Translations under genes and position numbers: made by a program
DNA from: Roseofilum reptotaenium CS-1145
GTDB lineage: Bacteria > Cyanobacteriota > Cyanobacteriia > Cyanobacteriales > Desertifilaceae
Assembly (NCBI RefSeq): GCF_028330985.1
Contig: NZ_JAQMUE010000074.1
Span: 62,001-126,000, forward strand
Direction: 5' to 3'
DNA length: 64,000 bases
Shown: one piece after another, positions 51,828 to 56,598 of the stretch
Position numbering within the stretch: position 1 is the first letter of the stretch
How the letters are laid out: each line of letters starts with the position of its first letter
The notes under the pieces: model-generated
What the model was told of the DNA's origin: nothing
Seen by the model: the letters and a program-made list of their open reading frames with translations, nothing else
The model's database searches: none

Positions 51828-54824
51828 ATGTCCGATGAGTATATTGTGGTTAAAACCAGTGAATATACTTCCCTTCAAGAGGAAGTAAAACGCCTCAGAG
51901 AACGGGTATGGGCACTTGAACAGCCGACCCAAATTCAACCTGAACCTATCCAGGTGGCTCAACAAAAAGCCCTTTTAGCCGTCATTACACGCATTCGTCA
52001 ATCTCTGGATGTGGAAACTATTTTCCAATCAACAGCGATAGAAGTACGACAACTGTTAAATGCCGATCGGGTAGGCATGTATCAATTTGCTGAAAACTCT
52101 AACTACCAATGGGGGGAATTTGTCTCCGAGGATGTCTTACCTCCTTTTTCTTCCACTTTAGCTGCTCGGATTGAAGATCACTGTTTTGGCGATAATTATG
52201 CCCAATATTACCAAGAAGGACGAATTTGGGCTTGCAATGATATTTATGCACAAGGTTTAAATACTTGTCATATTCAGATCTTAGAACAATTCCAAGTCCA
52301 AGCTAATTTGGTGGTTCCCCTCCTAAAGGGAGAGATATTATGGGGACTTCTCTGTATTCATCAGTGTGGCGATCCTCGATGTTGGCAACCCCAAGAAATA
52401 GAATTTGTTTCCCAAATCGCGGTTCATTTAGGAGTTGCTCTACAGCAGGCAGAAGTCTTAGCCGGGCAAAAACAACAGTCAGATCGGTTAGCTAAAGCGG
52501 TAGCTCAGGCTGTGGATCGGGAACAGGCGATCGCTGCTGTAATCACGAAAATCCGCCAATCCCTCGATCTCGATACTATTTTTCGCACCACCACCGATGA
52601 AGTCCGTCAACTGCTCAAAGCCGATCGAGTCGTCATTTATCGTTTTAACGAAGATTGGAGTGGAGAATTTGTTGTAGACTCCGTCGCTCCGATGTGGAAA
52701 TCCTTAATTATCGGGCAACAGAAAAATCCAAATTTGAACGGTCAGATTAGTGAATGTAGTCTCAAAAACCTAGAACATTTGTCCGTCACAGATACTTACT
52801 TCCAGCAAACCCAAGGCCAATTATTTAATCAAGTGCAATTATTTCGGGTTTGTTCAGATATCTATAATAGTAATTTTTCTGAATGTTATATTCAGGCCTT
52901 AGAATCCTATCAAGCTAGAGCCTATGCCATTGTCGCCATTTATCAACACCAGCGTCTATGGGGCTTATTAGCTGTCTTTCAAAATTCCGGCCCCAGAGAT
53001 TGGCAAGAGATTGAAATCAACTTCTTAGTTCAGATTAGTTCTCAATTAGGAGTGGCGATTCAACAAGCAGAATTATTAGCCCAAACCCAAAAACGCTCTA
53101 GCGAATTAAAAAGCACATTAGATGCCCAACTGCAAAAACGAGCCAATGAATTAGAGCAAGAAGCACAACGGGAGAAGGCGATCGCTGAAGTAATTGATAA
53201 AATTCGTCGTACCCTAGACTTAGAGACTATTTTTCAAACGGCTGCAACAGAAGTCCGACAACTGCTAAATGCAGATCGAGTCGCTATTTTTGAGTTTGAT
53301 CGCGAGTCCGACTGTACTCAGGGAAAATTTGTTTCTGAAGATGTCTTACCTAGCTTTGAATCAACCTTAACTCAAAAAGTTTATGATTATTGTTTTGATT
53401 GGCATCAGAACAATAATCATAAACCCGGAAAACTACAAGCCATTTCCGACATTTTTACGGCAGATCTATCTCCTTGCTATTTTAATATCTTAAACAAATT
53501 TCAAATTCGTGCCAATCTAGTTCTCCCCCTAGTTAAAGGGAATCAGTTATGGGGTTTGCTATGTATTCATCAATGTTCCAAAGCCAGAACTTGGGACCCC
53601 AAAGAAATTGAATTTACCCGTAAAATTGCCATTCAGTTAGGCGTAGCCTTACAACAGGCAGAATTACTCTCTCAAGCACAAAAGCGATCCAGTGAATTAC
53701 GAATAACCCTAGCAGATTTAAATGCCATTGTTGATAATTTAGCCGATGGCTTATTAGTGACTGATACCCAAGGGAGAGTAACTCGGTTTAATCCTGCTCT
53801 TTTGTCGATGTTTAACTTAGAACGATGGCAACTAGAAGGACAGAATGTTTGGACGATTTTCTCCCCTGAATTAGAGGAGTTGATCGCATTAATTCATAAT
53901 CGAAATCAAGAAATTATTACCCTTGATGTGAAGTTGGGGAATCATCGCGAAGGTCAAGCCTTAGCGACGAGTATTATTAAGGAAGGAGAAGGAATGGAAG
54001 GGGATCAATGTATGGGTTCAGTGATTCTCATTCGAGATGTCACTGTCGAGCGGGAAGTAGATCGGATGAAAACTGATTTCTTAAACACAGTTTCCCATGA
54101 ATTGAGAACCCCTTTAACTTCAGTACTAGGATTTGCAGAAATGATTCAGGAGAAGCTGGAAGAAATTATTTTTCCTGCAACTATACAACAGGATAGAAAA
54201 GTGAAGCGATCGGTTGTCGCAGTCAGTAATAACATTGACATTATCATTTCTGAAGCAGAACGGTTAACCTCCCTAATCAATGATGTATTAGATATTGCAA
54301 AAATGGAATCTGGTCGAGTAGACTGGAATATTCAACCCGTTAATCCAAAGGTGATTTTAGATCGAGCGATTGCCGTAACTTTTTCTCTCATCAACAGTAA
54401 TAATTTACAGTTAATCAAAAAAATCCATCCAGATTTACCCGTGATTGAAGTTGATACCGATCGCCTGATTCAAGTCCTCATTAATTTAATCTCTAATGCT
54501 GTAAAATTTACCGAACAAGGAACCATTACTTGTGAAGCAGAGGTTGCAGACAATCACCTGGTGGTTTCCATTATTGATACAGGTATAGGTATTGCACCAG
54601 AAAACCAGGATACTGTATTTGAGCGGTTTAAGCAAGTGGGGGATATTTTAACGAATAAACCTAAAGGAACAGGTTTAGGATTAGCAATTTGTAAACAGAT
54701 TATTGAATATCATGGGGGTAAAATTTGGGTTGAAAGTGCCCTTAATCAAGGAAGTAAGTTTTCTTTTTTGCTTCCCCTCGATCCAAAAGTGGTTAGACAG
54801 CATATAGAGGAATTCAATGAATAA
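51828..54824 (+). CDS. Candidate DXCF cyanobacteriochrome histidine kinase (GAF-GAF-GAF-PAS-HisKA-HATPase)
   Basis: A 998-residue cytoplasmic kinase. Three GAF domains: GAF1 (about 45-210), GAF2 (about 232-415) and GAF3 (about 450-612). GAF1 has DHCF (Cys119) and CH (Cys147-His148); GAF3 has DYCF (Cys522) and CY (Cys550-Tyr551). In both, the cysteines are 28 residues apart, as in the DXCF cyanobacteriochrome TePixJ, where they hold a bilin. GAF2 has the second cysteine only (Cys353-Tyr354). A PAS domain (about 632-742), HisKA (His757 in SHELRTP) and HATPase (NLISNAVKF, DTGIGI, GTGLGL) follow. It overlaps the next gene by 8 bases. Bilin binding is inferred, not shown. Confidence 0.85.
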   Translation: MSDEYIVVKTSEYTSLQEEVKRLRERVWALEQPTQIQPEPIQVAQQKALLAVITRIRQSLDVETIFQSTAIEVRQLLNADRVGMYQFAENSNYQWGEFVSEDVLPPFSSTLAARIEDHCFGDNYAQYYQEGRIWACNDIYAQGLNTCHIQILEQFQVQANLVVPLLKGEILWGLLCIHQCGDPRCWQPQEIEFVSQIAVHLGVALQQAEVLAGQKQQSDRLAKAVAQAVDREQAIAAVITKIRQSLDLDTIFRTTTDEVRQLLKADRVVIYRFNEDWSGEFVVDSVAPMWKSLIIGQQKNPNLNGQISECSLKNLEHLSVTDTYFQQTQGQLFNQVQLFRVCSDIYNSNFSECYIQALESYQARAYAIVAIYQHQRLWGLLAVFQNSGPRDWQEIEINFLVQISSQLGVAIQQAELLAQTQKRSSELKSTLDAQLQKRANELEQEAQREKAIAEVIDKIRRTLDLETIFQTAATEVRQLLNADRVAIFEFDRESDCTQGKFVSEDVLPSFESTLTQKVYDYCFDWHQNNNHKPGKLQAISDIFTADLSPCYFNILNKFQIRANLVLPLVKGNQLWGLLCIHQCSKARTWDPKEIEFTRKIAIQLGVALQQAELLSQAQKRSSELRITLADLNAIVDNLADGLLVTDTQGRVTRFNPALLSMFNLERWQLEGQNVWTIFSPELEELIALIHNRNQEIITLDVKLGNHREGQALATSIIKEGEGMEGDQCMGSVILIRDVTVEREVDRMKTDFLNTVSHELRTPLTSVLGFAEMIQEKLEEIIFPATIQQDRKVKRSVVAVSNNIDIIISEAERLTSLINDVLDIAKMESGRVDWNIQPVNPKVILDRAIAVTFSLINSNNLQLIKKIHPDLPVIEVDTDRLIQVLINLISNAVKFTEQGTITCEAEVADNHLVVSIIDTGIGIAPENQDTVFERFKQVGDILTNKPKGTGLGLAICKQIIEYHGGKIWVESALNQGSKFSFLLPLDPKVVRQHIEEFNE

Positions 54825-55206
54825 AAAAGTCTTAATTGTTGATGATGAACCTAACATCCTTATCCTCATGGAACAAGCTCTTGAAAAATTGGAGGATGAA
54901 GATGACGTAATTCTCTTAACAGCTAAAAACGGTCAAGAAGCATTGCAGGTAATTGAAGAAGAAAACCCTGACTTAGTTTTTTTAGATGTGATGATGCCTA
55001 AGATGAATGGACTAGAAGTTTGTGCCCAAGTTAAAGAAAATTCTAAGTTTGATAATATCTATATTATTATGCTGACGGCAAAAGGTCAAGAGTTTGATAG
55101 AAAAACAGGCATAGCTGTAGGAGCAGATTTGTATATGACTAAACCTTTTCGTCCGAAGGAAGTATTGGCTAAATCAAGAGAAATTCTTGGATTTATAAAT
55201 GAGTAA
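54817..55206 (+). CDS. CheY-like response regulator
   Basis: A 129-residue single receiver domain. VLIVDDEP at the start, the phosphate acceptor Asp57 in LVFLDVMMPKMNG, and the lysine in LYMTKPFRPKE are all intact. No output domain. The start codon overlaps the kinase gene by 8 bases, so the two are translationally coupled and almost certainly partners. It should take phosphate from the kinase's His757 and act on the next gene product or a shared target. Confidence 0.93.
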   Translation: MNKKVLIVDDEPNILILMEQALEKLEDEDDVILLTAKNGQEALQVIEEENPDLVFLDVMMPKMNGLEVCAQVKENSKFDNIYIIMLTAKGQEFDRKTGIAVGADLYMTKPFRPKEVLAKSREILGFINE

Positions 55207-55212
55207 ATTTTA

Positions 55213-56598
55213 ATGATAAATATTAATTTTAAAAAAATTGTCCTCAAGCCTAGAATAAAAAAAATCATCCAGCGGCTCACTAACGATAATCATCAGATAG
55301 GGATTTTAGACGATCGTCAAATTCCCATTTTAGGAGAGCTAACCCTAGCTAATGCCCAAGGATATGAAATTGCTGTAGAAGATAAAATTTTAGGTTGGGT
55401 CGTCAGCGAAGATATCCATGATTCGATTGCCCAACTGGTTATTTATTTAATTGAAATAGAAGTCAACAAAAAAGTGTTAGCGGCTGATGCTTTAGACAAA
55501 TACGAAGAACTAAACTTTTTGTATGATATCTCCTCTAAAATATCTACGTGTTTGCATGTCCATGAAGTGATCAAGCTCATGGCGAATGAAGCATTCAAAC
55601 AAATACCGGGTAATGCATTAGTGGTCATGATTTATAATGCTTATGAACAATCTATGCAAACTTTTTATCCTAAAACTGATGAAAATCAAGTCATCTTAGG
55701 GAAGAAAATTCCAACTAATATCGGAATTTATGGTTCTGTTTTTAATTCAGGAAAGGCGGAAATTGTAAATCAGGTGACTTTAGATCCTCGATTTATTCCT
55801 CAAGATTTTGAAATTGTGTCTATGATGTGTTGTCCGTTAATGACACAAACGGGGAAATTAGGCATAATTCAAATTAGTAGCGATCGCGCTCTAGACTATA
55901 CAGCCCAAGACCTCAAATTATTTACAGCTCTAGCTTCCCAAGCCGCCGCATCAATTCAGAATGCTCTATTTTATGAACAACTCCGGGACTATTCCTATAC
56001 CTTAGAGAGAAAAGTAGCTGAAAGAACCGCTGAATTAGAGCGAGTAAACCAAGAATTAAATCAACTGGCTAATTTAGATGGCTTAACCCAAGTGGCAAAC
56101 CGTCGCTGTTTGCAAGAAACATTTGATCGAGAATGGTCTCGACTGGCAAGGGAGAAATTGCCCCTATCCATTATTATCTGTGATGTAGATTATTTTAAGC
56201 GTTATAATGATACTTATGGGCATCAAATGGGAGATGAATGCTTACAAAAAATAGCCGAAGCAATCAAACAAGCTTTAAAAAGACCAGCGGATTTAGTGGC
56301 TCGATATGGTGGAGAAGAATTTGTCGTAATTTTGCCCAATACTCAAGCATCTGGAGCTTGGATAGTTGCTCAAGAAATCCAAGAGCATGTGCGTCAACTA
56401 TCCCTCGATCATCAAGCCTCACTCGTTAGTCCTTTTATTACGATGAGTATGGGACTCTCTTCAACCATCCCCACTCACGAAACGTCAGGAGAAGAATTGT
56501 TTGAAATTGCGGATCAAGCCCTCTACGAAGCTAAAAAACAGGGTCGCGATCGCATGATATTTCGGGAATTCAAATCGCCAGATCTTCAACCTCAATAA
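55213..56598 (+). CDS. GAF-GGDEF diguanylate cyclase
   Basis: A 461-residue protein. An N-terminal region (about 1-90) of unknown fold is followed by a GAF domain (about 100-255) without the bilin cysteines. A coiled coil (about 255-285) leads to the GGDEF domain with DGLTQVANRRCLQ, DVDYFKRYNDTYGHQMGD and the active ARYGGEEFVVI (366-370). The inhibitory I-site RPAD (357-360) is present at the usual 5-residue spacing, so cyclic di-GMP should inhibit it. It lies 6 bases after the receiver gene and belongs to the same operon. Confidence 0.92.
   Translation: MININFKKIVLKPRIKKIIQRLTNDNHQIGILDDRQIPILGELTLANAQGYEIAVEDKILGWVVSEDIHDSIAQLVIYLIEIEVNKKVLAADALDKYEELNFLYDISSKISTCLHVHEVIKLMANEAFKQIPGNALVVMIYNAYEQSMQTFYPKTDENQVILGKKIPTNIGIYGSVFNSGKAEIVNQVTLDPRFIPQDFEIVSMMCCPLMTQTGKLGIIQISSDRALDYTAQDLKLFTALASQAAASIQNALFYEQLRDYSYTLERKVAERTAELERVNQELNQLANLDGLTQVANRRCLQETFDREWSRLAREKLPLSIIICDVDYFKRYNDTYGHQMGDECLQKIAEAIKQALKRPADLVARYGGEEFVVILPNTQASGAWIVAQEIQEHVRQLSLDHQASLVSPFITMSMGLSSTIPTHETSGEELFEIADQALYEAKKQGRDRMIFREFKSPDLQPQ

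Follow-up and report, generated by a model that had tools for sequence, protein, structure and literature searches.

In many response regulators, an output domain is part of the same protein, as in the REC-GGDEF proteins PleD and WspR. In the cyanobacterial proteins SesA (Tlr0924) and Cph2, the sensor and the GGDEF domain are parts of a single protein. For the CdgK-CdgS pair from Anabaena PCC 7120, passages of PMC9927289 carry the authors' suggestion that phosphorylation raises the cyclase activity, and in TePixJ, a blue/green cyanobacteriochrome of the DXCF type, both C494 and C522 bind the bilin (according to passages of PMC6955287). The locus described here occupies positions 51828 to 56598 of a 64,000-nucleotide stretch (the window) of the Roseofilum reptotaenium CS-1145 genome (assembly GCF_028330985.1, contig NZ_JAQMUE010000074.1, positions 62,001 to 126,000). 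It encodes a sensor histidine kinase, a stand-alone receiver, and a GAF-GGDEF protein, and is probably a cassette that couples light to cyclic di-GMP (c-di-GMP). The kinase core, the receiver, and the N-terminal module of the cyclase (the N-module) co-occur in cyanobacterial genomes whatever the output domain attached to that module, and the phosphorylated receiver most likely acts on the N-module in trans.

All three genes are on the forward strand. The kinase gene (51828-54824, 998 residues) overlaps the receiver gene (54817-55206, 129 residues) by 8 bases, and the cyclase gene (55213-56598, 461 residues) follows after a gap of 6 bases. This layout and gene content are as described in the sequence-only reading of the window, which had proposed a light-sensing operon. 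The kinase has the domain architecture GAF1-GAF2-GAF3-PAS-HisKA-HATPase_c, with all six domains recognized by Pfam; all 25 of its 86 NCBIfam matches that were listed scored below the respective cut-offs. The Pfam matches of the other two proteins are Response_reg for the receiver and GAF and GGDEF (179 bits for the latter) for the cyclase. By motif, the kinase contains the phosphoacceptor His757 in its HisKA domain, as well as the ATP-binding motifs, and the receiver contains the phosphoacceptor Asp57, the conserved acidic pair, Thr, and Lys. As the receiver is a separate protein, the cyclase is not a REC-GGDEF response regulator. Scans for promoters and terminators returned fewer sites than shuffled sequences did (11 versus a mean of 14.2, and 1 versus 4.3, respectively).

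Co-occurrence of the kinase core, the receiver, and the N-module

The N-module comprises the first ∼255 residues of the cyclase (55213-55980) and consists of an N-terminal domain (approximately residues 1 to 105) and a GAF domain that falls outside the cyanobacteriochrome clade in the GAF tree. A profile of residues 1 to 256, built from 11 rows, detected this module at E values of ≤1e-25 in 73 places in 67 of the 290 genomes of the class. Searches of the same 290 genomes with profiles of the receiver (13 rows) and the kinase core (12 rows) identified the receiver of this cassette in 66 genomes and the kinase core in 66. All three components were found in 62 genomes and none of them in 220; after the removal of the nine genomes that had contributed rows to the profiles, the complete set was still present in 54 of 281. 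The thresholds for the receiver and the kinase core were set before the respective search of the class, that for the receiver being derived from a gap in the scores within the R. reptotaenium genome. There, the locus receiver (240.5 bits) and one other (205 bits) stand apart from the third-best of 98 matches (110.7 bits). Likewise, the locus kinase (455 bits) and a second kinase core (412 bits) are separated from the next of 89 matches (198 bits), with 150 of the 199 candidates scored. Both standout receivers and both standout kinase cores adjoin the two N-modules detected in this genome.

Among the 70 genomes with either an N-module or a cassette receiver, 63 encode both, including those where the two are encoded apart (e.g., G136, G145, and G168) and irrespective of the output. 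At the level of individual loci, 74 N-modules were classified, representing 66 of the 73 places found in the class search and eight loci from outside that sample. A cassette receiver was found on the stretch examined for 60 of these, in 56 cases on the same strand and in 43 within 400 bases, and a cassette kinase was found for 40. Among these 40, cyanobacteriochromes with the canonical Cys were present at all 10 GGDEF loci but at only 2 of the 30 loci with other outputs (1 of 7 with the cyclase, 1 of 12 with the histidine kinase, and 0 of 11 with other domains, the last group including the locus L063, whose bilin-type GAF lacks the Cys).

The outputs themselves are diverse. Thirteen of the 74 N-modules are followed by GGDEF, 29 by a class III nucleotide cyclase, and 13 by a histidine kinase; 12 are short and 7 belong to none of these types. 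Pfam searches with five of these seven recognized two SpoIIE phosphatases (L157 and L173), two Ser/Thr protein kinases (L185 and L191), and one protein with no output family; the remaining two, L193 and L194, are grouped by the tree with the rows of the Ser/Thr kinase type. The GGDEF-linked N-modules form one side of a single branch of the tree (support values, 97/80, with long-branch warnings). In the four genomes with the SpoIIE and Ser/Thr kinase fusions recognized by Pfam, the cassette receiver is encoded elsewhere. In two short-type loci (L163:6001-7567 and L166:5244-6810), the N-module and the class III cyclase are encoded in separate neighboring frames, which in relatives form a single gene. 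The second trio of R. reptotaenium (L153:2871-7790, contig C101) consists of a kinase with a HAMP domain and a weakly matching dCache domain, a cyclase of the N-module-class III type, and a receiver; its kinase also contains a PG_binding_1 match at residues 102 to 144.

No Pfam family was found above the cut-off in the first 105 residues of six members of the N-module, and a profile search of the PDB with this region yielded a best E value of 0.13. A structural model of the N-module was too poor overall (a mean predicted local distance difference test [pLDDT] score of 49, with only four sequences in the alignment), with pLDDT values of 68 to 86 for residues ∼11 to 80, which are arranged in the order helix, four strands, helix. 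Foldseek searches with this model produced no matches at E values of ≤0.001; the best rows were the HD-GYP phosphodiesterase 4MCW (E value of 0.0021), followed by GAF-containing phytochrome and phosphodiesterase proteins (TM scores of ∼0.2 to 0.3). Given the quality of the model and the absence of Foldseek matches at that threshold, no fold is claimed for this region. We give an even chance to the proposal that these ∼105 residues represent a new receiver-docking domain that, together with the receiver and the kinase core, forms a universal cyanobacterial signaling socket with swappable sensors (bilin, Cache/HAMP, and PAS) and swappable outputs (c-di-GMP, class III cyclic nucleotide, histidine kinase, SpoIIE phosphatase, and Ser/Thr kinase). 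Under that proposal, the locus in the window would be the light-to-c-di-GMP version of the socket and the second trio the one whose output is a class III cyclase. A system of this kind, in which the sensor and the output are exchanged and the middle stays constant, is seemingly undescribed: a literature search by titles, beginnings of abstracts, and text passages, with most subscription journals outside its coverage, found no kinase-receiver-N-module trio with swapped inputs or outputs.

A number of observations weigh against such a partnership. The N-module was detected without the other two components in genomes G066 and G326, with the receiver but no kinase in G084, and, as an N-module-GGDEF protein, with the kinase core but no receiver above the threshold in G043 and G286. 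Conversely, the receiver was found with the kinase but no N-module in G098 and G119, and on its own in G134. For 14 of the 74 N-modules, the stretch examined lacks a cassette receiver, and the 10 loci that link light to GGDEF include six members of a single genus. Fisher tests of the co-occurrence gave extreme values, with the genomes being related and the counts not phylogenetically independent; for this reason, weight is placed on the agreement within families f33 and f7, where members with and without the parts are found side by side. The absences in these counts are less certain than the presences, because only the best 9 candidates per genome (14 for the receiver) were scored in each search. 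In G043, the cyanobacteriochrome kinase and the N-module-GGDEF gene (L065 and L066) are far apart.

Some of these cases could be explained if the receiver were a CheY-like output or a phosphate sink, serving, for example, the motility machinery, with the cyclase merely cotranscribed and responding to the ligand of its own GAF domain. In keeping with that possibility, the receiver lacks an output domain, none of the 74 N-modules is fused to it, genomes G098 and G119 have the receiver and the kinase without an N-module, G043 and G286 have an N-module-GGDEF protein and the kinase without the receiver, and at two loci (L062 and L069) the stretch examined contains the kinase and the receiver but lacks an N-module. 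Against it stands the joint presence of the receiver and the N-module in 63 of 70 genomes, even when they are encoded apart and for any output, and this alternative is considered unlikely. Action of the receiver on the N-module, rather than on a separate target, is retained as the preferred reading. In this system, a separate receiver is accompanied by a single partner module, and the enzyme attached to that module varies among five kinds. If the preferred reading is true, a single phosphotransfer step would reach c-di-GMP, cyclic-nucleotide, histidine-kinase, phosphatase, and Ser/Thr kinase signaling, offering a ready architecture for optogenetics.

Cyanobacteriochrome-type GAF domains of the kinase

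In phmmer searches of the PDB with each of the three GAF domains of the kinase, bilin-binding GAF proteins of the cyanobacteriochrome kind ranked at the top; 6OAP, a dual sensor kinase, came first for GAF1 and GAF3, and 6BHN (NpR6012g4) came first for GAF2. In a midpoint-rooted tree of 49 GAF rows with some long branches, all three share a clade with six references from solved cyanobacteriochromes (one of them an engineered descendant and one a variant chain) and are separated from the cyclase GAFs with support values of 99/97. Placement of GAF1 and GAF3 outside this clade had been named as one result that would undo the light-sensing proposal; both fell inside it in either analysis.

GAF1 (residues 48 to 212, 51969-52463) has a DHCF motif with Cys119 and the canonical Cys147 followed by His148, and GAF3 (residues 450 to 612, 53175-53663) has a DYCF motif with Cys522 and the canonical Cys550 followed by Tyr551. 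The spacing of 28 residues in both pairs and the canonical Cys353 of GAF2 had been read correctly from the sequence. In contrast, the statement that GAF2 (residues 232 to 418, 52521-53081) keeps only the second cysteine was mistaken: Cys310 (codon at 52755-52757) is located within the ECSLK stretch of the insertion loop, 12 residues upstream of DTYF and ahead of the canonical Cys353-Tyr354. According to passages of PMC5240096, the insert-Cys is part of a CXXR/K motif of low conservation in the insertion loop, the Asp and Tyr that follow it are important for photoconversion, and the four insert-Cys domains studied sense near-UV to orange light. GAF2 has the same arrangement, with the second Cys in CSLK ahead of D-X-Y. 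A Cys equivalent to Cys310 was found in all 10 GAF2-type domains examined (that of R. reptotaenium, five from the same genus, and those of L059, L060, L062, and L155), 10 to 12 residues before the Asp, and the CXXK motif in 9 of them, L062 having Gln instead. In the tree, GAF2 belongs to the side of the red/green cyanobacteriochromes and JSC1_58120g3 (98/96), which are its nearest references. A blind middle domain is rejected on the basis of the CSLK insert-Cys, and the initial choice between three serial chromophores and one blind middle domain is not supported as worded. The kinase appears instead to be a series of three dual-cysteine cyanobacteriochrome candidates of the DXCF, insert-Cys, and DXCF types. 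Since all three are of the dual-cysteine kind, light in the near-UV to blue range, as sensed in the dark-adapted states of the characterized relatives, is the likely input. A structural model of GAF2 (pLDDT of 38) was discarded.

C119, C147, C310, and C353 are invariant in the six same-genus kinases, with both cysteines of GAF1 thus retained in all six, and their equivalents are found in the more distant kinases from L059, L060, and L062 (59 to 64% identity over the matched parts). GAF1 also has Tyr and Arg at the positions of TePixJ residues 503 and 507, with Tyr replacing Trp at position 499. Two extra cysteines, C136 in GAF1 (52233-52235) and C342 in GAF2 (52851-52853), located 11 residues N-terminal to the respective canonical Cys, are likewise invariant in the six kinases.

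Evidence of the opposite kind includes the features of GAF3, which has weaker pocket residues, with His and Lys in place of Tyr503 and Arg507 of TePixJ, and retains its Cys pair in only five of the six same-genus kinases; in the sixth (L056, genome G003), DCSF and SDSY stand in place of the two motifs. Both GAF2 and GAF3 have Tyr rather than His after the canonical Cys (CY), the Trp of the XRG WXDXXL motif (a motif named in passages of PMC11284453) is absent from GAF2, TePixJ forms no group with either GAF1 or GAF3 within the clade, and the more distant kinase from L063 (52% identity) retains a single bilin-type GAF without the Cys. Owing to the loss of both cysteines in L056, the CY motif, and the His/Lys substitutions, doubt attaches to GAF3 rather than to GAF2, and GAF3 is the likeliest of the three to be blind or only weakly sensing.

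These features might be taken to mean that the GAF domains are largely blind, their cysteines being inherited, and that the kinase responds to another signal, light having an effect through GAF1 at most. We regard this as improbable, given that four of the cysteines are kept in all six same-genus kinases, with equivalents in L059, L060, and L062, and that CY is also found, by alignment, in miRFP670nano, a bilin protein of the cyanobacteriochrome family; CY alone accordingly does not exclude a bilin. The genome also provides for bilin synthesis, with two heme oxygenases and a set of three bilin reductases (PcyA, PebA, and PebB), which all score above the NCBIfam cut-offs for the phycocyanobilin, 15,16-dihydrobiliverdin, and phycoerythrobilin types. 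Bilin-carrying GAF domains are the preferred interpretation of the sensor. The GAF family (PF01590) is represented in this genome in 89 places, which include one more DXCF cyanobacteriochrome-type domain with DHCF and CH motifs (L002:1501-1932, contig C77). Because it combines three candidate dual-cysteine domains belonging to two types, this kinase would allow a direct test of how serial cyanobacteriochromes add up, and the G003 kinase offers a natural variant without the GAF3 cysteines for the same question.

The cyclase, its relatives, and a possible signaling path

The cyclase combines an intact GGEEF motif (residues 366 to 370, 56308-56322) and an intact FKRYNDTYGH stretch with an RPAD I-site (residues 357 to 360, 56281-56292) located five residues before GGEEF; the RxxD and GGEEF motifs had both been noted in the sequence-only reading. 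Some GGDEF proteins act as c-di-GMP receptors, and an inactive cyclase binding c-di-GMP through this I-site is conceivable here but highly improbable, as GGEEF and FKRYNDTYGH are intact, the GGDEF domain scores 179 bits, and two relatives show the opposite of what a receptor needs, having lost the I-site Arg (NPTD in L056 and HPRD in L060) and kept GGEEF. A catalytically active, product-inhibited diguanylate cyclase is favored. The L056 locus (L056:3564-8344, genome G003) is a natural variant that lacks both the GAF3 cysteines and the I-site Arg.

The same three genes in the same order are found in R. reptotaenium and in five other genomes of the genus (G001 to G005); in G014, G026, G015, and G312, the three genes include a larger cyanobacteriochrome kinase. 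Among the best 80 of the 247 confirmed loci from named genomes, only three matched the cyclase over its full length: UBA2566 (97% identity) and two Roseofilum species, R. acuticapitatum (84%) and R. halophilum (79%). In G010 and G006, a protein matches the cyclase over residues 1 to 255 only and has a C-terminal class III nucleotide cyclase. The initial description of this operon as uncommon stands for the combination of GGDEF, receiver, and cyanobacteriochrome kinase, which was seen at 10 of the 74 N-module loci (a single genus accounting for six), and does not extend to the parent trio, which is whole in 62 of the 290 genomes.

The motifs and the gene order suggest a path in which light would change the activity of the kinase at His757 and the phosphoryl group would pass from there to Asp57 of the stand-alone receiver. 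The phosphorylated receiver would then act in trans on the N-module and thereby set the activity of the diguanylate cyclase, upward or downward, a step suggested by co-occurrence and adjacency; product binding at the I-site could limit the output. Passages of PMC4284477 describe R. reptotaenium as a gliding organism with positive phototaxis, and c-di-GMP is reported to affect such behavior in cyanobacteria (passages of PMC10581220). In this light-seeking, gliding genus, the three genes probably convert short-wavelength light into c-di-GMP, and they may contribute to gliding or to the formation of mats.

The sensor kinase itself is a new member of an already known type. Like TePixJ, it has a DXCF motif and a canonical Cys 28 residues apart, with CH shared by GAF1. 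Unlike TePixJ, whose chain in the PDB bears the name of a methyl-accepting chemotaxis protein, the sensor here is a kinase, its GAF3 has CY and lacks the equivalents of Tyr503 and Arg507, and GAF1 and GAF3 do not group with TePixJ inside the clade. GAF2 resembles the insert-Cys domains Mbr3854g4, Mbl3738g2, NpF2164g3, and NpR1597g2, for which passages of PMC5240096 show the same succession of a CXXK motif in the loop, D-T-Y, and the canonical Cys. By the residue numbers given in that paper, the distance from Cys to Asp is 26 residues in Mbr3854g4 and 14 in Mbl3738g2, versus 12 in GAF2, which also differs from the set in having CY; the likeness is one of motif.

On the output side, the CdgK-CdgS pair is similar in that a kinase and a GGDEF protein are encoded in one operon. 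However, as described in passages of PMC9927289, CdgS is itself a response regulator with the phosphoacceptor Asp60, whereas the receiver here is a separate protein, and CdgK is a membrane-bound hybrid kinase containing CHASE and PAS domains and a single GAF domain, whereas the sensor here is of the cyanobacteriochrome type. SesA and Cph2, named in passages of PMC8846402 and PMC10581220, likewise couple a cyanobacterial bilin GAF to c-di-GMP. In contrast to those two, the locus described here divides this coupling among three proteins, with a proposed phosphotransfer step between them.

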